This document shows, one piece after another, positions 13,183 through 34,036 of a stretch of 64,000 bases of DNA (positions are counted from its first letter, which is position 1; the number at the start of each line of letters is the position of its first letter). Below the pieces are notes generated by a model, which was not told the DNA's origin, did no database searches, and saw only the letters and a program-made list of their open reading frames with translations. A program made the translations under genes and the position numbers. Source of the DNA: Prevotella sp. E13-17 (GTDB lineage: Bacteria > Bacteroidota > Bacteroidia > Bacteroidales > Bacteroidaceae); contig NZ_CP091787.1 of the NCBI RefSeq assembly GCF_022024035.1, positions 3,070,001 through 3,134,000 of the forward strand, in the 5' to 3' direction.

Positions 13183-13439
13183 CAAAGCGGCACTTTCCGC
13201 ATGGAATGGCGGTGCTTTAGTCATCTGACACCATCGCAACAACAACATAAGAGTTATGCTTTTATCGCAGTTCTAAGGGCTGGAGAGCCCACTTCCAGCC
13301 CCTGGATAGCAGCCGTCCAGCCCCTGGATAGCAATTGTCCAGCCCCTGGATTCAACTCAATAGTGGCACTATTAGCCGCAGAAAGTGCCACTATAACGCA
13401 CGTAAACGAGCACTTTAGGACAACGATAGTGGCTCTTGA
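13183..13439. repeat. 22-bp-periodic palindrome array A
   Basis: Non-coding. Small palindromes are centred at 13190, 13212, 13256, 13278, 13300, 13322, 13344, 13366, 13388, 13410 and 13432, all on one 22-bp grid; the 13234 position has no clear symmetry. Units change along the array: CAAAG-CGGCA-CTTTC, a weaker copy, AAGAG-TTATG-CTTTT, TCTAA-GGG-CTGGA, three exact TCCAG-CCC-CTGGA, then AATAGTG-G-CACTATT (7-bp arms), AGTG-C-CACT and two degenerate copies. The gap between the coding regions here is 436 bp and holds no convincing gene; the array fills most of it. Compare arrays B and C. Confidence 0.8.
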
Positions 13440-15192: not shown

Positions 15193-18100
15193 TTATTTTA
15201 TAAATAGTCTCTTCGTGTTGATAATGTATAGACCGCTTGGTAGTTTCAGTACCTGCTGTAGAGGCATCTGACGAGAAACCAGTGTGCCATTAAGCGTATA
15301 GACAGTCACGTACTTACATCCGGCAAAGATTTTCTCAATGCCCGAAGTGATGTCGGCGGTGTAGGTGATGTCATGAGCAGGCATCGTCTTGTATTCCTGG
15401 TCGCTCACCCATCCGTTGAAGGTGTAACCTTCCTCGGCTGTGTATTGGCGTAGTACGATAGTTGCGCCATATTCCACTGGGTCACGTGCCCACTCTTGTC
15501 CGTTCACTATATAGATAACGTTGTATTTGTTGAACGTGTAAACGGCATCGTAGGTTACGTCATGAGCAGGAACGGTAGTACCTTCTGCCAATGTCGGATT
15601 CCAACCAGTAAAGGTGTGGCCTTCCTTCTCGGGGGCAGTTGGTGGTGTGATAACAGAGCCATAGTCTAGAGAATCTGTTTTGATGGTTACACCATCTGCC
15701 GTGAATGTCACGGCGTACTGGTTGACTGTAAACTGAGCCGTGAATGTCAGGTTAAATGCAGGCATCGAATCAGGAATCTCTGGTGTCCACCCAGTGAAGG
15801 TGTAGCCTTCCTTAACCGGATCGGTTGGCTTGGTTATGGAGGTCGCATAGGTTACCTCGTTCTCGCTTTCCTGTCCGTCAACAACCCATGTCACCTTGTA
15901 TTTGTTGGCTGTGTATACAGCGTCGTAGGTCACATCGTGTGCGGGCATTGTTGCACCTACCGTCAGTTCTGGATTCCATCCTTTGAAGGTGTGGCCTTCC
16001 TTGTCTGGAGCCTCGGGTGCAGTAATGGTAGCACCAAAGTCCAGCGCTTCAGTCTTAATAGTCTCACCATTGGCAGTAAATGTTATGGTGTACTGATTGA
16101 CAGTCCACGTAGCCTTATAGCTTCGGTTCTCCGTACTACCCGTAGCAATAATTACCGATGTCGTTGCCTCGTTGAGTCCCGTACCAGTCCATCCGGCGAA
16201 GGTATATCCCTCGCGGATAGGAGCGTTCAGCGTGATAGGCTGGCTCTCGATGGTGTAAGTTGTAGCGTTGGTGACACCCTCGGGCATTGCACCACCGTCC
16301 AGGTCATAGCTGATGGAGTAAGTGATAGCCTCCCATTGTGCCGTGAATGACTTATTCTCGGCAGGAACCTTGCTAGGTACCTGTGTGTCCCAACCCTTGA
16401 AGGTATAGCCAGTCTTGGTAGGAACCGGAGCTGTCAGGTCGCTGTTGTAGTCCTGTACCTTCACCACGTTCTCCTCACCATTGTTCAGTACGAACGTCAT
16501 CGTGTACTGGTTGATGGTCCACGTAGCCTTATAGCTTCGGTTCTCCGTACTACCCGTGGCAATAATCACCGATGTCGTTGCCTCGTTGAGTCCCGTACCA
16601 GTCCATCCGGCGAAGGTATATCCCTCGCGGATAGGAGCGTTCAGCGTGATAGGCTGGCTCTCGATGGTGTAAGTTGTAGCGTTGGTGACACCCTCGGGCA
16701 TTGCACCACCGTCCAGGTCATAGCTGATGGAGTAAGTGATAGCCTCCCATTGTGCCGTGAATGACTTATTCTCAGCAGGAACCTTTGCAGGAACAGCAGT
16801 ATCCCATCCCTTGAAGGTATAACCAGTCTTGGTAGGAACTGGTGCCGTCAGGTCGCTGTTGTAGTCCTGTACCTTCACCACATTCTCCTCACCATTGTTC
16901 AGTACGAACGTCATCGTGTACTGGTTGATGGTCCACGTAGCCTTATAGCTTCGGTTCTCCGTACTACCCGTGGCAATAATCACCGATGTCGTTGCCTCGT
17001 TGAGTCCCGTACCAGTCCATCCGGCGAAGGTATATCCCTCGCGGATAGGAGCGTTCAGCGTGATAGGCTGGCTCTCGATGGTGTAAGTTGTAGCGTTGGT
17101 GACACCCTCGGGCATTGCACCACCGTCCAGGTCATAGCTGATGGAGTAAGTGATAGCCTCCCATTGTGCCGTGAATGACTTGTTCTCGGCAGGAACCTTG
17201 CTAGGTACCTGTGTGTCCCAACCCTTGAAGGTATAACCAGTCTTGGTAGGAACTGGTGCCGTCAGGTCGCTGTTGTAGTCCTGTACCTTCACCACATTCT
17301 CCTCACCATTGTTCAGTACGAACGTCATCGTGTACTGGTTGATGGTCCACGTAGCCTTATAGCTTCGGTTCTCCGTACTACCCGTGGCAATAATCACCGA
17401 TGTCGTTGCCTCGTTGAGTCCCGTACCAGTCCATCCGGCGAAGGTATATCCCTCGCGGATAGGAGCGTTCAGCGTGATAGGCTGGCTCTCGATGGTGTAA
17501 GTTGTAGCGTTGGTGACACCCTCGGGCATTGCACCACCGTCCAGGTCATAGCTGATGGAGTAAGTGATAGCCTCCCATTGTGCCGTGAATGACTTATTCT
17601 CGGCAGGAACCTTGCTAGGTACCTGTGTGTCCCAACCCTTGAAGGTATAACCAGTCTTGGTAGGAACTGGTGCCGTCAGGTCGCTGTTGTAGTCCTGTAC
17701 CTTCAACACATTCTCCTCACCATTGTTCAGTACGAACGTCATCGTGTACTGGTTGATGGTCCACGTAGCCTTATAGCTTCGGTTCTCCGTACTACCCGTG
17801 GCAATAATCACCGATGTCGTTGCCTCGTTGAGTCCCGTACCAGTCCATCCGGCGAAGGTATATCCCTCGCGGATAGGAGCGTCCAGCGTGATAGGCTGGC
17901 TCTCGATGGTGTAAGTTGTAGCGTTGGTGACACCCTCGGGCATTGCACCACCGTCCAGGTCATAGCTGATGGTGTAGGTGATAGCCTCCCATTGTGCCGT
18001 GAATGACTTATTCTCAGCAGGAACCTTTGCAGGAACAGCAGTATCCCATCCCTTGAAGGTATAACCAGTCTTGGTAGGAACTGGTGCCGTCAGGTCGCTG

Positions 18101-19728
18101 TTGTAGTCCTGTTCCTTCATCACATTCTCCTCACCATTGTTCAGTACAAACGTCATCGTGTACTGGTTGATGGTAAACTGAGCTGTGAAGTTTTGGTCGG
18201 AAGCCGGCATCGTTTCAGGAACCACGGGAGTCCACCCCGCAAAGGTATAACCTACCTTCTGTGGGTCAGTGGGCTTGGTGATGGCAGTTGCGTAAACTAC
18301 GGAATCACTCTTCACTGTTTCTCCCTCAGAAGTGAACTTAGCTAAGTATTTGTTGGGCGTGTACTGAGCCGTGAAGACTACATCAGAGTCGGGTACCAGT
18401 TCTGGTACTTCGGGTTCCCATCCTTTGAATGTATGTCCCTCTTTTGCAGGTGCCTGTGGAATCACTATGGCAGTAGCATAATCCTGCTTCTGGTTAACTA
18501 CAGCCTCTCCTTTAGCCATGAACTTTACCTGGTACTGATTGATGGTGAACTGAGCCGTAAAGGTTTGGTTTTCAGCAGGCATGTTCTCAGGTACGACAGG
18601 CGTCCATGCAGAGAATGTGTATCCCTTCTTCTGCGGATCCTCGGGTAACGAGATAGCATCCTCGTAGAGCACAGAATCACTCTTCACAATTTCCCCTTCA
18701 GAGATAAACTTTGCCACATACTTGTTGCGCGTCCACTGAGCCGTAAAGGTCATGTTGCTTCCAGGAATGGTAGCAGGTACTTCAGGATCCCAACCGGCAA
18801 AGGTGAAGCCAGTCTTTGTAGGAGCACTCGTTGCGGGAATAGACTCACCATAGTTCTTCGTAATCCATCGAATCTCCTGCCCGTCAACTACATAAGTCAT
18901 CGTGTACTCATTAATTTGGAACTGAGCCTCGTAAGTTAATGGGTTGTTAGGCATCTTAGAAGCTACGGACGGTGTCCACTTCGTAAAGCTATAGCCCTCC
19001 TTACTAGGATTCTCTGGCAGTACAATCGTTGAGTTGTAGTCCTGCAATTCCGAACGTACCGTGTCGCCCTCACTGATGAATGTCAGTAAGTGCTGATTGG
19101 GCGCAAAGATAGCCTGCAATTCCGTAGCCTTCATGACAGCGAAAGTACAGGTGTCGTTTGTCTCATCATTTGACCATTTCACGAAGTGATAGCCGGTATT
19201 GGCTGTCGCTTTGAGGTGTGCTATTTCCTCCTCCTCATAGATGCCGCTGCCAGTAACGGTTCCCATCACCTCGTCGTTGGGGGTTCCTGTCACCTGATAC
19301 TTTGGCGTATTGGCAATGATGTCGTATTGAACGGGAGTTGACACTTCGCCAATCGTTCCACCATCCACAAGAGCAATCTTCGCACCATAGATGCGCTTTT
19401 CCTCTTGTGTCAATTTGTTGTAAACCTTCAAATAGGCTGTTTCCTCAGAAACGCCATCGCAACGGATTTGCAATAAGCCGTACTTATAGGTGATCTCATT
19501 CTTCACAACCTGTTCAAAGGTTGCTACGCCACGACATTCTTCACCGACAAAGGCAGCCACCTCATAGGGTGTGGTGTCTTCGTAGACGTTGGTGCCATCA
19601 GTCAGGTGGAAGTAGACCGACATATAAGATTGGTTTGCGTTAATATCGCATTGCCAGTGGCTCTGGGCACTGAGGGCCGAAGCCCACAGTACCATAGCCA
19701 TGATGGATAAGATTCTAATCTGTTTCAT
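15193..19728 (-). CDS. Giant InlB B-repeat-containing secreted protein
   Basis: 1511 residues from the ATG giving MKQIRILSIMAMVLWASALSAQ, a signal peptide. After an N-terminal domain (about 25-190) comes a long run of InlB B-type (Listeria-Bacteroides) beta-grasp repeats of about 65-75 residues, with signatures such as GYTFAGWTP and KEGHTFKGW. Five central copies of a 138-residue double repeat are nearly identical. The C-terminus (VTVYTLNGTLVSRQ, then LPSGLYIINTKRLFIK) looks like a type IX-like sorting or adhesion tail. The role is probably a surface or secreted stalk; ligand unknown. Start TTG at 19734 is possible but unneeded. Last of three linked giant genes, 12 bp after its neighbour. Confidence 0.88.
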   Translation of the reverse strand: MKQIRILSIMAMVLWASALSAQSHWQCDINANQSYMSVYFHLTDGTNVYEDTTPYEVAAFVGEECRGVATFEQVVKNEITYKYGLLQIRCDGVSEETAYLKVYNKLTQEEKRIYGAKIALVDGGTIGEVSTPVQYDIIANTPKYQVTGTPNDEVMGTVTGSGIYEEEEIAHLKATANTGYHFVKWSNDETNDTCTFAVMKATELQAIFAPNQHLLTFISEGDTVRSELQDYNSTIVLPENPSKEGYSFTKWTPSVASKMPNNPLTYEAQFQINEYTMTYVVDGQEIRWITKNYGESIPATSAPTKTGFTFAGWDPEVPATIPGSNMTFTAQWTRNKYVAKFISEGEIVKSDSVLYEDAISLPEDPQKKGYTFSAWTPVVPENMPAENQTFTAQFTINQYQVKFMAKGEAVVNQKQDYATAIVIPQAPAKEGHTFKGWEPEVPELVPDSDVVFTAQYTPNKYLAKFTSEGETVKSDSVVYATAITKPTDPQKVGYTFAGWTPVVPETMPASDQNFTAQFTINQYTMTFVLNNGEENVMKEQDYNSDLTAPVPTKTGYTFKGWDTAVPAKVPAENKSFTAQWEAITYTISYDLDGGAMPEGVTNATTYTIESQPITLDAPIREGYTFAGWTGTGLNEATTSVIIATGSTENRSYKATWTINQYTMTFVLNNGEENVLKVQDYNSDLTAPVPTKTGYTFKGWDTQVPSKVPAENKSFTAQWEAITYSISYDLDGGAMPEGVTNATTYTIESQPITLNAPIREGYTFAGWTGTGLNEATTSVIIATGSTENRSYKATWTINQYTMTFVLNNGEENVVKVQDYNSDLTAPVPTKTGYTFKGWDTQVPSKVPAENKSFTAQWEAITYSISYDLDGGAMPEGVTNATTYTIESQPITLNAPIREGYTFAGWTGTGLNEATTSVIIATGSTENRSYKATWTINQYTMTFVLNNGEENVVKVQDYNSDLTAPVPTKTGYTFKGWDTAVPAKVPAENKSFTAQWEAITYSISYDLDGGAMPEGVTNATTYTIESQPITLNAPIREGYTFAGWTGTGLNEATTSVIIATGSTENRSYKATWTINQYTMTFVLNNGEENVVKVQDYNSDLTAPVPTKTGYTFKGWDTQVPSKVPAENKSFTAQWEAITYSISYDLDGGAMPEGVTNATTYTIESQPITLNAPIREGYTFAGWTGTGLNEATTSVIIATGSTENRSYKATWTVNQYTITFTANGETIKTEALDFGATITAPEAPDKEGHTFKGWNPELTVGATMPAHDVTYDAVYTANKYKVTWVVDGQESENEVTYATSITKPTDPVKEGYTFTGWTPEIPDSMPAFNLTFTAQFTVNQYAVTFTADGVTIKTDSLDYGSVITPPTAPEKEGHTFTGWNPTLAEGTTVPAHDVTYDAVYTFNKYNVIYIVNGQEWARDPVEYGATIVLRQYTAEEGYTFNGWVSDQEYKTMPAHDITYTADITSGIEKIFAGCKYVTVYTLNGTLVSRQMPLQQVLKLPSGLYIINTKRLFIK
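16098..18170 (-). repeat. Five tandem 414-bp near-identical coding repeats
   Basis: Inside the InlB-repeat gene, the phrase encoding INQYTMTFVLNNGEENV and its surroundings recurs with an exact 414-bp period (seen at 16507, 16921, 17335, 17749). Copies differ at only a few codons, such as VLKVQ/VVKVQ/VMKEQ and TQVPSK/TAVPAK. DNA as well as protein is conserved, which indicates recent duplication or gene conversion. Confidence 0.92.
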
Positions 19729-19740
19729 AAGCAATCAAGT

Positions 19741-26945: not shown

Positions 26946-29900
26946 TTACTTCACAACAGCTTTTTGCCCATTCTTGATGTAAACACCCTTGGTGGCGTTC
27001 TCCACGCGACGGCCTTGCAGATCGTAGTAGTTCTCGTTGCTCAGTTGCTTGTCAACAGACTTGATGCCTGTCACCTCACCACCTTTGAGACGAATCAGGA
27101 AGCGGCCGTTCAGTGTGCCGGCTTCAGCCTGGAAGGAATAGCCAGCCTCGCCCAACAGAACCTCTTCGCCTGTCAGCAGGTCAATGATGTAAACCTCAGC
27201 ATCGGCCTTGGTGTCCAGGTTGATGGTGTAGGTATCAGCCTTTGTCACCTTCATGCCCAGGGCAACCTCACAATTGTTCAGCGGACGTTCGTTGATGGCG
27301 TAGTTCAAACCATCCTCGATGGTGTAGAGCAGTATGCCGTTTGCGTTGCCGTCCATGAACTTCGAAGCATCTTTGTCCATCTCATAGGTCAGCAGAGCTC
27401 CCTCGTTGATGACGAAGCGCGTCTCGTCACTCTGGTTCTCGCCCTCAATGGTCAGGTTGAAGATGCTACGCTGAGCGGTCATCTCGCTCTGGCGAGAGCT
27501 TGGGAAGTAGTTAACATCATCCTTGGCCTGTGGTGTCAGCTGACGACCCTCGCGCAGGAAGGTGATGCTAGCCTGGTCAAGTGGACGTTGCATGAAGAAA
27601 GCCTCACCAGGAGCCAGGATGTACTTATCGTCAACAGGAGAGTAAGCCTTGTATCTGTAACCATTCTCCCATATGGTGATAGGAGCGGTGCAGTCGATGG
27701 CACGTGTGTCGAAGTAGCAGGGGTATGGGTTACCGATGAAGTTCCAGTTGCGGTTCTGTGGGAACTCGCTCAGGTTCTCCTCCAGGTCAACCTCTACGGT
27801 GCCCGTGCGGAACATGTTGTTCTTGTTCACGCTTTGCTGAGCCTGTACGTCGAACTCAATGTCGTAGTTGGTGTTCTGATACTGACTACCATCTTCCTCG
27901 GTGATGGTCTCAGTGGTGTGAGCACCCTGCCAGATATAACCCTTGCCAGCTTCGAGAATGTCGTCGCCAGTCATGTTGTACCAGGTCTCGTCCATCTTTC
28001 CGTCGGCACGCTTCTTCACATCGTAGCCACGAACCACGAACTGCGTGTTGTTCACATTCACGATGTCGCTCACCTTCACGTCGAACGGCAGTGCAATGAA
28101 ATTCCACTCGTCAGCTCTCAGGTGCAGCTTCAGCGTGTTGTTGTCCGTGCGAATCTTACCGTTAGCCATCAGTGTGGCGAAGCGGCTGTAGGTGTCGCTG
28201 TTGCTCTCGCGCTTGTAGAAGTAGTCCCAGTACATGGAGAACTCCTTGGCAGAAAGCGTTGCATTACCCGTTACGGTAACGGCTGCGTAGCGATAGCGAT
28301 CCTCAGACCAGTAATTGTCACCACGATCCATCTTGGTCAGCTCTACGTTGGGCTTGTAGCTGAAGCTTACGGTGTCTGGCCATAACAGACGGTAGGTGTC
28401 GCTGATGATGATGTTCTCAGGCATGATGTTCAGTCCGTAGATATTGGGTGCGAATTTACTCCACCTGTCGGTCTGCTTATAAGATGCCAGTGAGAGTTCT
28501 GGTACATAGAGTGAGCACTGTGACTCCTTTCCACCCATGATGTCATTATCGTTGGCGTATGGAGGAGCAATAGCCTTCACCGTGATGCTAGTTAGGTTGT
28601 CGCAATCTCTGAATGGATAGAATACGCTGTTCACAGAGCTGGGCAGAGTCACTGCCGTCAGACTATCACAGTTACCGAAGGCATTGCTTTGAATGATGCT
28701 CAGTCCTTCGGGCAGTTCTATGTTCTTCAGTCCGCTGTTATAGAATGCGTCAAAACCAATCTTCTTGATAGTTGAAGGCAGCGTGACGCTCTTCAGTGCG
28801 GTACAACCCTCGAAGGTCTCGCTTTGGATTTCAGTCAGTCCATCGCCGAAGTTTACTTCTTCCAGTTCGAAGTTATTGTTGAATGCACTATAGCCTAAGT
28901 TGGTCAGAGTGCTTGGCAGAGTCACCTTCTTTAGTTTGCTGCCGTTACGATATCCTATAGAATGGCCTTGCTCGTCATAGTAATAATCCCAGTTGGTATT
29001 AGCTTGATAAGCGTAGTTGCCGATAGATGTTACACCCTCGGGAACAATCACCTCAGTAAACTGTGAGCAACCATAGAACGCATAATTGTCGATTGTCTTC
29101 AAGGTTGCAGGCAGTGCGACATCCTTCAGATTCTTACAATTGTAGAATGCGCGATAACCGATGGTTTCCAGATTTGCAGGGAGTACGACGCTGGTGAGCC
29201 CGGTGCGATCTCTGAATATCTCACGTGGAAGATTCTTCAGGTTGATACCGTTCATGTCGATTTCCTGCAGGTTGGTCAACTGGTTCTTGATCTTGTCCAT
29301 ATCAGTATCGTCCACAGGACCGCTGATGCGCAATCCCTGAACATCGGTGAAGTTATTGATGCGCTGCAGAACCTCATCGCCCAAAGTACCTGGGTCGCCG
29401 ATGGTGATGGTCAGGTAAACCATCTGCAATTGTGCGGCGTGCCATGCAATCTGCTCCTGCAGGATAGCGATGTCTTCAGCCTTGTAAGTACCAGCACCAA
29501 TGCCAGTCTGTACCTCGGTGATGAAGGTATTGGCTGCTTGCAACTTGGCGGCATCAATAAATTGGTTCTCCTGTCCTGCTGTAGCAAGATCTGTGAGTTG
29601 TTTCTCTATTACTGTATAAGCAGCATCCAGATTCTGCAGAGCCTTGGTGTCGGTCTTCAATGCCTTGATATAGGCCTTTGCCTGGTCGACATCCAGTTCT
29701 TCGGCTGCAGCAATAGCCTTTGCCTCGGTCAGTGCTGTTGCCAGTGCCTCCTTGCCATCTACCTTTTCGTGCTTCAATGCTGCAATGGCATCCTCGGTCA
29801 AGGTAATCTGGGCATTAAGGCGTTCTGCCACTTCCTCTGGAGTAGGATCGTCGTAGGTTACAGCAAACCTGTAGAAGCGGAACTGATCGCTTGTAGTATT

Positions 29901-32213
29901 GGTGATAGTCAACTCGTTAGCCTCACCTGTCCAACAGTTATTCTCAATGGTACCTTCACTTGCCTGTCCACGAACATACGAACTCTCACCATCGCTGGTG
30001 AAGAACTGAATGCGTACCATTGGGAGCTCTGATACGAAGGTCATAGAGTTCTTGCTATTTAGACGCATGTTGCTATAGTAACTGGAAGGAGTGTATCCTT
30101 CATTCTGATGGAAGGTCAGTTTCACCTTATTATAATATATAGTGTCGCCTTCGTTGTAATAATATGAGTAACCATTGCTTGGAATGTCGTATACCTCAAC
30201 AATATACATGAAGTTGGCCTTTACGTTCTCTACCACTGCGTTCAGAGTCTCGATTGCAGCAAGTTTGGCTTCTGCGTCCTCGCTCTCTAAAACGGTGTTG
30301 GCTTCAGCAATGGCTGCAGTAATCAACTGCTTGCCCTTGTCCTTAATCTGATCGTCTTGCAGCAACAGACCTGCAGAAGCGATGGCTTGGCTCAGCGCAT
30401 CTCCTGCCTTCTCGGCATCCATGCCCCAATAGTAAAGTTTGAAGTTGCTCCATGCGGCAAATCCGGAATTCTCATTGCTGGTGGAACCCTTCACACCCAG
30501 TTTAATGTCGGCACCTTCTGCTACGTAAGTATAGACCGCGTTGTGGTACATGTCACGGTTGAACACACTCCATGCACCATAATACCATGAAGGATAGCGG
30601 AAGCAACCATCATTGGAACAATAGTTGAAGTTCTCAAATCCAAGGCCGCTATTCTCCCATTCGTAATAGGTTTCCTCGGGAATACCTTCATCGAAGATGT
30701 TCTTCAGGGCAGAAGTGCTATTGTTCAGATACAGATATACAGGCACGTCGCGCTTGTTCTGTATGAAGTAAGCGTCACCTCCCTCGTAATTCTGATAGTA
30801 GCCCTGTGCCTGTACCTCATAGATACCTGCGGCAGGAGCCTTGATGGTTTGGTAAACATCAAAGTCGTTATACTCTACATAGGCTACGCGGTTCTCGAAT
30901 CTTGCGCCAGTGTAGGTCCAACCGTTGCTATAATTCATGAAGTTAGGATTGGTGAGCAACACCGTCTTGTTGTATTCGGGTGTAGCATAGCTACCGTTCA
31001 GAACCTGTGCTGTAATATCCTCAAACGATGTCACACCATCGTACCAATAATAGTGTACTCCCTCTATATCGTCAATGTCGGAAGTCTGATTGCCATTGCC
31101 ATCATTTAATATGATGTTTACCTTGTCGGTATAGATGGGCATATACCAGAATATGGTACCATTGATGGTATCCTTCTTTTCCATTTGCTTTCCTGGCCAA
31201 TCGCTAACTGAGGCACCTCCCCATGTATATAGGTAAGGTGCGATTGCGCAATCCACGTAAACCATTACCGAGTCGGTCGGTTGTGGATCGGGATCTTCAG
31301 GATTTGGATCGTCTATTCCGCCAGACTCTGAACCACTGATGCGTATGTACCAGTTTTTCCCGATTTCATCGCCACCGTCCCATGCTACCATGATAGTAAA
31401 CACGCGATAAGATGTGTCTTCGATATTAACAACGAAATTTCCATCCAGATCCGTTGTTATCCATTCTGGAAAACCATCTTGAGAAGCTAATTCCCCATAG
31501 CCTACCCAATATGTAGCGTCTTCAGTTACAGGACAGAACTTGAATTTCCATTCATCTTCAACATCAGCCTTGCTTAAGTCCACGGTAATCATGTAGGACT
31601 TGTCTGCTTCTATGGCGGAGAAAGATTCTGCTTGGGTGCTCCATTCATTGTGGCTTCCTGCAAGCATAACACCCTTAATGACGGTGTCGTTAACTTCTAT
31701 GGTTCCCTCCTGTCCGTTCTGTTCCTCATTCAGACTCATCTTGCCATTCAGAGCAACGAGAAAACCACTTGATTGCATCTCAGGCTTGCTCTCTTTGTAA
31801 TTTATCAGTTTACCATAAGCAATGACTTCATCGCCTACTTTGACTTCGTAATCTTTGGTAAGCTTTTCACCGTTGAAACCTTTGATGCGATAGAGCGTGA
31901 GGGTGTATGCCTCACCTGTCTCACTATCTGTTTCAGTTAGTTCAACAGTCATGTTTCCGTAAGTGGCGACGTCGAATTCTAGAATATTAGATATGACACC
32001 TCTTACCAGATATTCACTTTCTGTTGCTGTTTGACCAGTCTCTTGACAAACTTGAACAGCCTCCTTTACACTTAGAGCCTTTGCATAAACGTCTCTATAA
32101 GTGAAACTCTCTCCTTCGGAACTACCCATTATTGATGTAATTCCCTGTACTCCAGCCACAACTATCGCTGAGGCCAATAAGAGCACCGTCAAAAATAGAT
32201 ACTTCTTTTTCAT
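26946..32213 (-). CDS. Giant secreted BspA-like leucine-rich repeat protein with carbohydrate-binding-like domains
   Basis: 1755 residues. Signal peptide, then an OB-fold-like domain (about 45-160, YLVRGVISNILEFD to VGDEVIAYGKLINY), a SusE/F-like beta domain (about 170-300), and a CBM26-like module (about 315-400, VYVDCAIAPYLYTWGG). A further beta-rich domain, FIVAR-like helical segments (about 615-690 and 830-960) and BspA-type leucine-rich repeats follow (about 980-1240; LKDVALPATLKTIDNYAFYG pattern). The end, YYDLQGRRVENATKGVYIKNGQK, is the C-terminal tail common in Prevotella secreted proteins. Starch- or glycan-binding on the surface is a reasonable inference. First gene of the three-gene unit, with its own promoter. 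Confidence 0.85.
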   Translation of the reverse strand: MKKKYLFLTVLLLASAIVVAGVQGITSIMGSSEGESFTYRDVYAKALSVKEAVQVCQETGQTATESEYLVRGVISNILEFDVATYGNMTVELTETDSETGEAYTLTLYRIKGFNGEKLTKDYEVKVGDEVIAYGKLINYKESKPEMQSSGFLVALNGKMSLNEEQNGQEGTIEVNDTVIKGVMLAGSHNEWSTQAESFSAIEADKSYMITVDLSKADVEDEWKFKFCPVTEDATYWVGYGELASQDGFPEWITTDLDGNFVVNIEDTSYRVFTIMVAWDGGDEIGKNWYIRISGSESGGIDDPNPEDPDPQPTDSVMVYVDCAIAPYLYTWGGASVSDWPGKQMEKKDTINGTIFWYMPIYTDKVNIILNDGNGNQTSDIDDIEGVHYYWYDGVTSFEDITAQVLNGSYATPEYNKTVLLTNPNFMNYSNGWTYTGARFENRVAYVEYNDFDVYQTIKAPAAGIYEVQAQGYYQNYEGGDAYFIQNKRDVPVYLYLNNSTSALKNIFDEGIPEETYYEWENSGLGFENFNYCSNDGCFRYPSWYYGAWSVFNRDMYHNAVYTYVAEGADIKLGVKGSTSNENSGFAAWSNFKLYYWGMDAEKAGDALSQAIASAGLLLQDDQIKDKGKQLITAAIAEANTVLESEDAEAKLAAIETLNAVVENVKANFMYIVEVYDIPSNGYSYYYNEGDTIYYNKVKLTFHQNEGYTPSSYYSNMRLNSKNSMTFVSELPMVRIQFFTSDGESSYVRGQASEGTIENNCWTGEANELTITNTTSDQFRFYRFAVTYDDPTPEEVAERLNAQITLTEDAIAALKHEKVDGKEALATALTEAKAIAAAEELDVDQAKAYIKALKTDTKALQNLDAAYTVIEKQLTDLATAGQENQFIDAAKLQAANTFITEVQTGIGAGTYKAEDIAILQEQIAWHAAQLQMVYLTITIGDPGTLGDEVLQRINNFTDVQGLRISGPVDDTDMDKIKNQLTNLQEIDMNGINLKNLPREIFRDRTGLTSVVLPANLETIGYRAFYNCKNLKDVALPATLKTIDNYAFYGCSQFTEVIVPEGVTSIGNYAYQANTNWDYYYDEQGHSIGYRNGSKLKKVTLPSTLTNLGYSAFNNNFELEEVNFGDGLTEIQSETFEGCTALKSVTLPSTIKKIGFDAFYNSGLKNIELPEGLSIIQSNAFGNCDSLTAVTLPSSVNSVFYPFRDCDNLTSITVKAIAPPYANDNDIMGGKESQCSLYVPELSLASYKQTDRWSKFAPNIYGLNIMPENIIISDTYRLLWPDTVSFSYKPNVELTKMDRGDNYWSEDRYRYAAVTVTGNATLSAKEFSMYWDYFYKRESNSDTYSRFATLMANGKIRTDNNTLKLHLRADEWNFIALPFDVKVSDIVNVNNTQFVVRGYDVKKRADGKMDETWYNMTGDDILEAGKGYIWQGAHTTETITEEDGSQYQNTNYDIEFDVQAQQSVNKNNMFRTGTVEVDLEENLSEFPQNRNWNFIGNPYPCYFDTRAIDCTAPITIWENGYRYKAYSPVDDKYILAPGEAFFMQRPLDQASITFLREGRQLTPQAKDDVNYFPSSRQSEMTAQRSIFNLTIEGENQSDETRFVINEGALLTYEMDKDASKFMDGNANGILLYTIEDGLNYAINERPLNNCEVALGMKVTKADTYTINLDTKADAEVYIIDLLTGEEVLLGEAGYSFQAEAGTLNGRFLIRLKGGEVTGIKSVDKQLSNENYYDLQGRRVENATKGVYIKNGQKAVVK

Positions 32214-32468: not shown

Positions 32469-32527
32469 AAAAGCAGTACTTTTCGCATGGAAAAGTACTG
32501 CTTTTTGGTGTGAAAAGTACTGCTTTC
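32469..32527. repeat. 22-bp-periodic palindrome array B, short part
   Basis: Three 15-base units centred at 32476, 32498 and 32520: AAAAG-CAGTA-CTTTT, AAAAG-TACTG-CTTTT and AAAAG-TACTG-CTTTC. The second is the exact reverse complement of the first. The 7-base spacer after the first unit is CGCATGG, identical to that in array A after its first unit. Confidence 0.85.
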
Positions 32528-32563
32528 AGCGGATGTAAGCTTTCGTTCCTTTTTCGGAGTCTA

Positions 32564-32785
32564 TTACCAAGCCTTGACGATGCTGTTCTGCTTCTCGGTC
32601 ATGTGGTCCATCACCTCGTAGTAGTCTTGTAGATAGAGTGTGCCTGGAAGTCGCTCGGGTCCCTTGATGGAGCCCGTGACGTAGTCGGCCTGATGGCCCC
32701 ATCCGGTGATAAAGCCACCAACAATTGAGAGAAAAACCAAATTATATTTGAGTTTTTCCGAGATGCAGCCTAACTTCGACTTCGT
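32564..32785 (-). pseudogene. C-terminal fragment of an unidentified gene
   Basis: A 73-codon open stretch ending in a proper stop, with no usable start. The last 50 codons look like real protein (GFITGWGHQADYVTGSIKG and, later, LYLQDYYEVMDHMTEKQN), whereas the upstream part is low-complexity. I do not recognise the family. It sits between the two parts of array B and is probably the remnant of a gene otherwise deleted. The surrounding 968-bp gap holds otherwise only repeats. Confidence 0.5.
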
Positions 32786-32887
32786 CTAAGCTAGTGCAAA
32801 AGAGGGTGCAAACAAAACACCAAAACAGCCAGAATTACCACGCCATTTTAGGCAAGCAAAGATGCAAGAGTTGAGGTATTGAAAATG

Positions 32888-33165
32888 ACCTAGCCCCTGG
32901 AGCGGCAGAATCCAGCCCCTGGATGAACCAGTTCTAGGGGCTAGATCAGTCCGTTCTAGGGGCTAGATTCCACTCATCCAGGGGCTAGATCCAAACCAAA
33001 AGCGTTACTTTTGCGAGCTAAAAGTATAGCTTTTACCCACGAAGAGTAAAAGTCTAGCTCGGTAAAAGTGCCCGACTTAGGATGTCATAGTGGTGCTTTT
33101 AAGGGGTCATAGCAGTGCTTTCAGAGGGTCATAGCCATTGAGACCAACGGCCAGAGGGGGCTAAG
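32888..33165. repeat. 22-bp-periodic palindrome array B, long part
   Basis: Units centred every 22 bp from 32895 to 33159. The first five have 13-base cores (CCTAG-CCC-CTGGA, TCCAG-CCC-CTGGA, TCTAG-GGG-CTAGA twice, TCCAG-GGG-CTAGA). The register continues with AAAAG-CGTTA-CTTTT (33005) and AAAAG-TATAG-CTTTT (33027), two weak units, then CATAG-TGGTG-CTTTT, CATAG-CAGTG-CTTTC and a third CATAG copy with GTCATAG at exact 22-bp steps (33084, 33106, 33128), and a degenerate AGGGGGCTAAG. The array ends just before the stop codon of the kinase-like gene. Confidence 0.85.
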
Positions 33166-33181
33166 AGCGGCGCTATGATCA

Positions 33182-33817
33182 TTAGATATACTGCAATATC
33201 AGGTCCACAATCTCGGCCTCGGTCTTGCCGTCGGCAGAGATCACGAGCTGATAGTTACGCGTATCATAGCGCGACGTCTTCGTGTACTTGTTCACGTAGT
33301 TCTCGCGCATCTTGTCCACACGCTCGATGGTAGCGCGAGCCTCCTTCTCAGTCATGTTCTGTTTGCGCATGACGCGCTCCACCCTATACGGCATAGACGC
33401 CTGGATGAGGATGCTCAGGTGGTTGGGATGATCGCGAAGCACATGGAAGCCCGTACGTCCGGCAATGACACAAGAGCCACGCTGCGACAGACTCTGCAGT
33501 ATCAGCGTCTCCTTCTTATACACATCATCGGTGGTCAACGAGTCAGGTTCGTCGCCCCGTTGCGGAAGGAAGTAGTTGGAGTTCATGCCCGGTCCCAACT
33601 TCAGAATGCGCTCCACCTCAGCCCAGAAGCTATGCTCACGTCCCTTCAGATGTTCAATCTCGTCGGCACTGAGGTTGAACAGCTTCTGCAACTCATGAAT
33701 GAGCGCCTTGTCATAGAAAGGCACGCCCAACTTCTCTGCCAGCAGCCGACCCACGGTGCGTCCGCCACTGCCCAGTTCACGATTAATCGTGATAACAAAA
33801 TCCTCGTTCTTCTTCAT
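33182..33817 (-). CDS. Cytidylate kinase-like family protein
   Basis: 211 residues from the ATG giving MKKNEDFVITINRELGSGG. The GSGGRTVG loop and the downstream AGRTG, RVERVMRKQ and the final helical segment match the cytidylate kinase-like family (PF13189 type), a P-loop group related to Cmk but of uncertain substrate. A longer frame reaches upstream to 34081, but its extra part is a translation of array C and is rejected; an ATG at 33850 is a possible alternative start. Cytoplasmic. The gene is flanked on both sides by 22-bp-periodic arrays (B downstream, C upstream), which is unusual. Confidence 0.83.
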   Translation of the reverse strand: MKKNEDFVITINRELGSGGRTVGRLLAEKLGVPFYDKALIHELQKLFNLSADEIEHLKGREHSFWAEVERILKLGPGMNSNYFLPQRGDEPDSLTTDDVYKKETLILQSLSQRGSCVIAGRTGFHVLRDHPNHLSILIQASMPYRVERVMRKQNMTEKEARATIERVDKMRENYVNKYTKTSRYDTRNYQLVISADGKTEAEIVDLILQYI

Positions 33818-33892
33818 ACTTATTAGATTGGTAGTTTTCACATTTTTCATTATGTCATCATGTGGCTTCCCACATTTCTTGCGGTAAATATA

Positions 33893-33900: not shown

Positions 33901-33949
33901 TTCCGAAAGCACCATCACAATCCCTCCACTTTAACACATCCACGCCCCC

Positions 33950-34036
33950 TTCCCAGCACCATCGCTCCCCCTTCCCAGCGCCATCGCTCCCCCTTCCCAG
34001 CGCCCCCACCACCACTCCCGGCGCGTCTCCGCCGGG
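33950..34036. repeat. 22-bp-periodic palindrome array C
   Basis: GC-rich. TTCCCAGC starts at 33950, 33972 and 33994, exactly 22 bp apart. Palindromes AGCACCATCGCT and AGCGCCATCGCT are centred at 33960.5 and 33982.5; a degenerate unit follows at 34004.5 and a perfect CCCGGCG-CGTCTC-CGCCGGG at 34026.5, all in the same register. A second CTCCGCCGGG follows at 20 bp. Confidence 0.7.

Follow-up and report, generated by a model that had tools for sequence, protein, structure and literature searches.

In the known dispersed palindromes, the sequence is kept and the geometry varies. REP/BIME palindromes, which go with RAYT transposases, are clustered intergenic elements made of species-specific words, and CRISPR arrays alternate conserved repeats of ~25–40 bp with unique spacers of about the same length and are accompanied by cas genes. 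Plasmid iterons and the parC/ParR system contain phased sites that are filled by packed dimers, at few loci lying mostly on plasmids. The sites of Noc, SlmA, and MatP are dispersed chromosomal landmarks, single sites with conserved words, and multi-site operators are composed of phased palindromes.

Here we describe intergenic arrays of palindromic units on a 22-bp grid in Prevotella sp. E13-17 (hereafter designated G000), starting from one locus, array B, in the window, that is, the whole 64-kb stretch analyzed (bases 3,070,001–3,134,000 of the 3,454,626-bp single-contig genome; positions in the window are given in its own numbering). With the 22-bp step, the sites are phased near integer helical turns, as in phased operator or partition-site arrays; the arrays thereby resemble iterons and parC in phasing, and Noc, SlmA, and MatP sites in dispersal. 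In form they do not fit CRISPR arrays, the units being 22 bp with ~9 bp between 13-mers and the arrays being dispersed at 89 loci. Like REP/BIME elements, they are clustered, intergenic, species-specific palindromes, from which the strict 22-bp grid distinguishes them.

Two published repeats of related appearance can be compared by their descriptions. BrickBuilt of Porphyromonas gingivalis is reported to consist of 23-nt direct repeats, 1 to 22.8 units at 19 loci, with a leader and a tail carrying IS5-type terminal repeats (PMC4596501). It is alike in forming intergenic tandem arrays of short units with more and less conserved positions at many loci (PMC4596501), whereas the present arrays have a 22-bp step, palindromic units, a narrow range of unit number, and neither leader nor tail that we could find. 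PINSR of Prevotella intermedia and P. nigrescens is a 188-bp repeat with 177–184 intergenic copies and no terminal inverted repeats; about three quarters of its loci are common to two strains, and some rearrangements occurred between copies, as far as the consulted part of the source tells (PMC4755523). It shares with our arrays the Prevotella lineage, intergenic position, copy number, lack of terminal repeats, and a link to rearrangement, but is described as one 188-bp consensus, and the same part of the source mentions no 22-bp grid, palindromes, or dialects (PMC4755523). Compared in this way, by description, PINSR is the nearest published repeat found and may be a relative of the arrays. 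A literature search, mostly at the level of titles and abstracts and including few subscription papers, found no published description of such arrays. They belong with dispersed or phased palindromic site arrays, among which conserved geometry with changing sequence is an unusual property.

Results

Array B and its surroundings

The first-pass annotation had described this locus as one array in two parts, with mixed arms and units in both orientations, and its 22-bp periodicity and coordinates were right: centers lie at 32476, 32498, and 32520 and, on 22-bp steps, from 32895 onward. The first part (32470–32526; like all arrays below, not assigned to a strand) consists of three flank-type units of the form AAAG..CTTT, with 13-mers at 32470, 32492, and 32514. 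It is followed by an open frame of 73 residues on the minus strand (32564–32785), a possible gene remnant in which no Pfam match was found at E 0.01, and then by the left flank of array B (32801–32879), with four grid positions (13-mers at 32801, 32823, 32845, and 32867). This flank is worn, two of the four positions being recognized as units. The earlier remark that some units are degenerate is supported. The core (32889–32989) has five units (13-mers at 32889, 32911, 32933, 32955, and 32977; centers at 32895, 32917, 32939, 32961, and 32983) of the pattern YCYAG SSS CTRGA, and the right flank (32999–33121) has six flank-type grid positions (13-mers at 32999, 33021, 33043, 33065, 33087, and 33109). 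Array B is a true periodic array with mixed arms. The 13 grid positions proposed between 32895 and 33159 hold for five core and six flank-like units, and the last two (33131–33165; 33131 and 33153) are unrecognized as units.

The core centers read, in order, CCC CCC GGG GGG GGG; units do occur in both orientations, and what had been taken for alternation is one switch. Recomputation of the distance from the short array to the core agreed with the earlier figure (32895 − 32520 = 375 = 17 × 22 + 1, one base off phase). Given this one-base offset and the worn grid of the left flank of B, the locus is better described as two arrays than as one in two parts: a long array whose left flank is worn and, upstream of it, a short array made of the three units at 32470, of a kind that recurs elsewhere in G000. 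Array A (13184–13438) is of the same kind, with four flank positions, four core units (13272, 13294, 13316, and 13338), and four flank units. The first reading lacked the usual 4-5-4 plan, the ~89 copies in the genome, and the finding that related species share the step but use different words.

The neighboring genes, both on the minus strand, encode a large protein with BspA-type leucine-rich repeats (26946–32213; PF13306) and a cytidylate kinase-like protein (33182–33826; PF13189). Upstream of the latter gene, at 33945–34004, the window contains 2.7 copies of a 22-bp direct repeat, CCCCCTTCCCAGCGCCATCGCT, whose step is also 22 bp and which has a short AGCG..CGCT palindrome; the copies are almost identical and are therefore perhaps a young tandem duplication. 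Elsewhere, five copies of a 414-bp tandem repeat (16063–18174; 96% matches) lie within a 1513-residue open frame (15193–19734).

A 22-bp grid throughout the genome

The exact core pattern TCYAGSSSCTRGA occurred 243 times in G000, near-identical array copies included, versus none for the pattern read backwards. Among the matches listed (100 of the 243, in 36 clusters), all within-cluster distances were multiples of 22, and the largest cluster, a size reached by 18 clusters, was 88 bp, that is, five units. A scan for four flank units (threshold 24; slightly overlapping stretches totaling ~1.17 Mb of G000) gave 104 arrays at a spacing of 22, whereas ten other spacings gave no more than one array each. 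Moreover, twelve arrays cut on the grid aligned without gaps over 154 columns, and, with a matrix of 4 flank, 5 core, and 4 flank units, arrays scored 90–195 against a maximum of −72 for the reversed sequence; one further match (score 28), at the edge of a stretch, was part of a known array. A chance origin of the grid is excluded.

Model and pattern searches, followed by reading of sequence stretches, yielded at least 89 long arrays in G000. The model search scored the best 150 of 588 candidates, so that more arrays are possible; reading of ~770 kb of gaps added three. The sensitivity of a strict palindrome-run scan was too low for it to serve.

Plan of the long arrays

Core units have the word TCYAG-SSS-CTRGA and flank units AAWAG..CTWTT, with mostly three or four flank units per side. 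The core-like run comprised five units in 83 of the 89 long arrays, four in five arrays, and three in one, a count obtained from the 4-5-4 matrix scan, the five-unit limit being given also by the exact pattern alone. All four left flank units were recognized in 53 of the 89 arrays and all four right ones in 55, and a further flank-like unit preceded unit 1 in 30 arrays and followed unit 13 in 18; the 13-unit plan is not strict. For 52 non-redundant arrays, the information was 8–19 bits in each of the 13 units (8–11 in the three outer flank units, ~15 in the core-adjacent one, and 17–19 in the core) and dropped outside them, the adjoining units carrying 2.4 and 3.1 bits and those farther out 0.8–1.8, in a profile that favors the frame of the 13-unit matrix with which the arrays were placed. 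Outside the units, no conservation was found in these 52 arrays.

The long arrays have a dyad as a whole: compared with its own reverse complement, the profile of the non-redundant set was positive at one of seven offsets. In 58 non-family arrays, core centers at positions 1 and 2 were mostly CCC and those at positions 4 and 5 mostly GGG, CCCGG being the commonest order (9 of 58). Spacers were unrelated, with a median pairwise identity of 49% among non-family arrays.

The same step with other words in related genomes

A model of four flank units (AAAG..CTTT) matched, at E 0.001, 28 of 59 other genomes of the same genus versus 0 of 40 of other genera; among those 28, 13 had at least 10 matches and five had a single one, maybe by chance. 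Within the family, at E 1e-6, four of nine same-genus and one of 71 other-genus genomes matched. In stretches of G012, G017, G063, G077, and G079, 27 of 37 readings were of 4 or 5 units and the longest was 9, the arrays of G017 ranging from 4 to 9; some arrays of G010 and G077 were read twice, one base apart. The reversed-sequence control on the relatives' stretches gave 97 matches, triggered by the arrays themselves, and spacing controls were used instead.

The core pair was found only in G000 and G301 among 398 same-genus genomes, and other words occupy the grid elsewhere. G016, missed by the flank model, carries another palindrome, TGTAATTTGA.TCAAATTACA, at step 22, a clear result with 21 arrays in 160 kb and none at nine other steps. 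The evidence is weak for G024 (2 arrays at step 22 and also 2 at each of two other steps) and for G069 (2 at step 22 and 1 at step 23), and for all three genomes the matrices, trained on the same sequences at step 22, favor that step. A blind scan of G016, G024, and G069 pooled gave 11 at period 22 against a mean of 2.6 and a maximum of 5 at others, and G024 alone showed no clear excess (9 versus an other-period mean of 6.1 and maximum of 13). The blind scan of nine genomes outside the genus gave 2 at period 22 versus a mean of 1.65, and six genomes of other families (101 kb, one contributing only 1.3 kb) had no period-22 excess. The sister-genus genome G505 has two 4-unit arrays (L340 and L341), also spaced by 22 bp, in which AGGGTC and AGCCTC half-sites occur together in a single palindrome.

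A third palindrome class, TCTAGASTCTAGA, is carried by Xylanibacter brevis and by RUI122 (see below), as five units alone (L088), as four with four of the TCYAG-SSS-CTRGA type (L139, L140, and L154), or as six with three (L141). In G000, flank units and units of the TCTAGASTCTAGA type stand ahead of two family arrays, at 2647828 and 2671133 (L194 and L195); the third class therefore exists in G000 too.

Spacing of the arrays on the chromosome

Long arrays keep apart from each other. One of 89 intervals was shorter than 12.5 kb versus 24 expected, the minimum being 11 in 20,000 random placements and 10 in 5,000 placements with a 60-kb jitter that kept regional density. With the exact pattern alone, the first 1.14 Mb gave 1 of 35 versus 11 expected (lowest of 50,000 random placements, 2). 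Comparable results were obtained for X. brevis (4 of 47 intervals below 12.5 kb versus 12.7 expected; best 150 of 573 candidates scored) and G010 (0 of 65 below 7 kb versus 11.3 expected; best 150 of 745 scored), where positions were merged by eye and missing arrays could conceal short intervals. Array density was about one per 39 kb in G000 and one per 7.6 kb in G016. GC skew of the pieces read indicates an origin at about position 0 of G000 and a terminus at about 1.6 Mb; the half around the origin holds 56 arrays and that around the terminus 33. In three bins poor in arrays, which were read whole, GC content was 0.43–0.46, below most others.

The spacing rule is confined to long arrays, because some short arrays lie 0.8–3.5 kb from a long one. 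Outside the long-array frames fell 21 of the 104 flank-scan arrays, most of 3–5 units, three of them within 0.1 kb of a long array and looking like extensions.

Array copies and orthologous loci

Single linkage at >72% identity groups 31 of the 89 long arrays together as copies, from which it follows that many long arrays spread by copying; smaller clusters comprise 6, 2, and 2 arrays. Copies of the 31-member family have ragged, variable, and truncated ends, and a GGCTCAG-type neighbor is present in only some of them. Other dispersed intergenic modules, such as CCCTCCCGAGGGAGGG-type inverted repeats and a GGCTCAG..CTGAGCC module, adjoin a number of family copies (L043, L041, L036, and L007).

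In a collection of named genomes, the search of which may omit records very near the window, the three-core pattern was found in X. brevis ATCC 19188, the MAG Prevotella sp. RUI122, and one Alloprevotella MAG contig. The last (L145; JAFYFI010000167.1) is 3 kb long, is filed under Alloprevotella RGIG7039, and contains one array; it is probably a misbinned piece of G000's own species, because its flanks are 98–99% identical to those of the G000 array at 803195. Both flanks were orthologous to those of one G000 array in 17 of 39 foreign arrays, the misbinned contig included; 14 matched on one side (several at contig ends), one joins the flanks of two arrays, and seven were unmatched. Locus B was not among the loci matched on either side in this comparison of 39 foreign arrays.

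Comparison of 16 orthologous pairs at 14 loci, for which two pairs with 66-bp gaps were set aside, gave identities of 86% for the core motif (873/1014) and 59.5% for the core spacer (418/702), the values for flank motifs and flank spacers being 80% and 74%. Of 18 pairs, 11 were compared at the level of single units, and the changes in them often came in blocks, in which runs of units with identical spacers stand beside unrelated ones, in register. The suspicion, raised earlier for B, that arrays are rebuilt is thus borne out at orthologous loci other than B. In the clearest case (750310), a search of the 89 G000 arrays gave no ectopic source for the replaced blocks. At 1052558 and 3319284, the difference between the species amounts to exactly 66 bp, or three units (5 versus 8 core units). 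In the array at 630926, G000 and X. brevis have the same base at 282 of 286 positions, within flanks of 72–92% identity, the values for RUI122 being 68–77%, and it looks as though this array moved between species as a unit.

A proposed docking-site model

Going past the DNA anatomy, we tentatively propose, as our leading reading but at a likelihood short of even, that the arrays are phased sites for dimers of a putative protein that assembles into a nucleoprotein serving as a chromosomal landmark. Each 22-bp unit, with its palindrome of 13–19 bp, would be the site for a dimer of a sequence-specific DNA-binding protein, dimers being suggested by the palindromic form of the units. Since 22 bp is about two helical turns, neighboring dimers would lie on nearly the same face and might pack against one another. 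The limited range of unit numbers suggests that the assembly has a defined size, which would set the number of units: about four dimers on short arrays and, on long ones, a mirror-symmetric 4+5+4 assembly with two site classes, for which the array dyad suggests a closed symmetric complex. The resulting bodies, tens of kilobases apart between genes, would mark the chromosome, for example as domain boundaries, for anchoring, or in segregation or the timing of division; the sharing of loci between species, the wide spacing, and the missing link to particular genes suggest such a landmark rather than a regulon. Selection would act on geometry, and the recognized word would drift with the protein, giving rise to species dialects. 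A search for the putative array-binding protein gave no candidate, and a change of dialect, with one protein keeping hundreds of sites, is a problem that the docking model finds hard to explain.

Alternative readings

The strongest rival is that the arrays are selfish or hitch-hiking dispersed repeats, whether MITE-like, REP-like, or of a new kind, which copy into intergenic DNA and of which the grid is a by-product. The copy clusters, with their variable and truncated ends, speak for such an origin, as do the whole-unit insertions or deletions, the block differences, and the array at 630926, nearly unchanged within less similar flanks. Still, the 52 non-redundant arrays have no conserved ends outside the units, motifs are kept better than spacers, loci are common to different species, and spacing is non-random, even the copies avoiding other arrays (1 of 31 family copies within 10 kb of another array versus about 10, a third, expected). 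A MITE should have terminal inverted repeats or otherwise defined ends, whereas here nothing is conserved outside the units and the family ends vary. As for REP/BIME, the Y1 transposase (RAYT) family (PF01797) was found in 7 of 11 genomes tested, G000 among them, but not in G012, G017, G024, and G063, of which G012 and G017 are array-rich and at least 94% complete, G063 is rich and 81% complete, and G024 has weak array evidence. On this balance, we consider the selfish repeat a possible but rather doubtful explanation. A phage or plasmid source found no match: the core-pair pattern was absent from viral_contigs, and one family copy with its flanks matched neither plasmids nor phages.

Alternatively, the arrays might be marks for DNA recognition or exchange, such as recombinase, DNA uptake, or self-recognition sites with species dialects. 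This would account for palindromes that vary between species, for the block differences within arrays, for the one-sided matches of 14 of the 39 foreign arrays, and for locus 782512, where homology to RUI122 ends within about 60 bp of the left edge of the array. The one-sided matches are, however, partly contig ends; only one of the 39 joins the flanks of two G000 arrays, and in that case one flank, a piece of 276 bp, may itself be a repeat. As no candidate enzyme was found either, exchange marks seem improbable.

Gene context bears on the two remaining readings. Among the 89 long arrays, 78 overlap no called frame (longest open frames of at least 100 codons) and 11 overlap one; in ten of these the overlap is 1–97 bp, and for array A it covers 309 bp of a short frame that competes with another. 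The arrays lie between tandem genes in 56 cases, convergent genes in 22, and divergent genes in 11; the 639 adjacent gene pairs in long stretches were 464 tandem, 86 convergent, and 89 divergent. That the arrays act at the RNA level, by terminating transcription or by forming series of hairpins where genes end, would agree with the commoner convergent context (22/89 versus 86/639), with a tendency in 34 tandem contexts to lie nearer the end of the upstream gene (22 versus 12, p 0.12; medians, 71 and 213 bp), and with the correlation between the two arms within core units (odds ratio 3.6, p 1e-4, for units that are non-independent). Against it, sense-strand C.A mismatches (18) were not rarer than G.U-type pairs (12), 11 of the 89 arrays lie between divergent genes, an Rfam scan of the window at the gathering score gave no match, and a strict 22-bp grid would reflect a rule of the DNA helix, not of RNA, all of which makes the RNA reading very unlikely. 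Least probable are operators of an ordinary regulon, whose multi-site form the phased palindromes resemble, since the divergent context is not enriched (11/89 versus 89/639) and the flanking genes have no common function (85 proteins, taken from 91 listed references, with 116 Pfam families, none in more than two proteins). Collectively, the MITE, REP/RAYT, regulon, and RNA readings fit less well than the landmark reading.

Discussion

The docking-site model can be widened, with more reserve, to a chromosome-organizing system of Bacteroidales, perhaps family-wide, in which geometry is the conserved information, the word is free, and an architectural protein and its site arrays co-evolve; we regard this as conceivable, though on the unlikely side. 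In such a system, the geometry would be the 22-bp step with about four units or the mirror-symmetric 4+5+4 arrangement, and a fast-evolving protein would face hundreds of arrays that are renewed in blocks yet stay at the same loci. It would be a bacterial counterpart of centromere or satellite turnover. What is unusual here is that geometry is kept and sequence changes, the reverse of the known dispersed palindromes.

The arrays may also explain published Prevotella repeats such as PINSR. If they are docking sites, they would offer a handle on the organization of Bacteroidales chromosomes and a testable case of sites and their binding protein drifting together.
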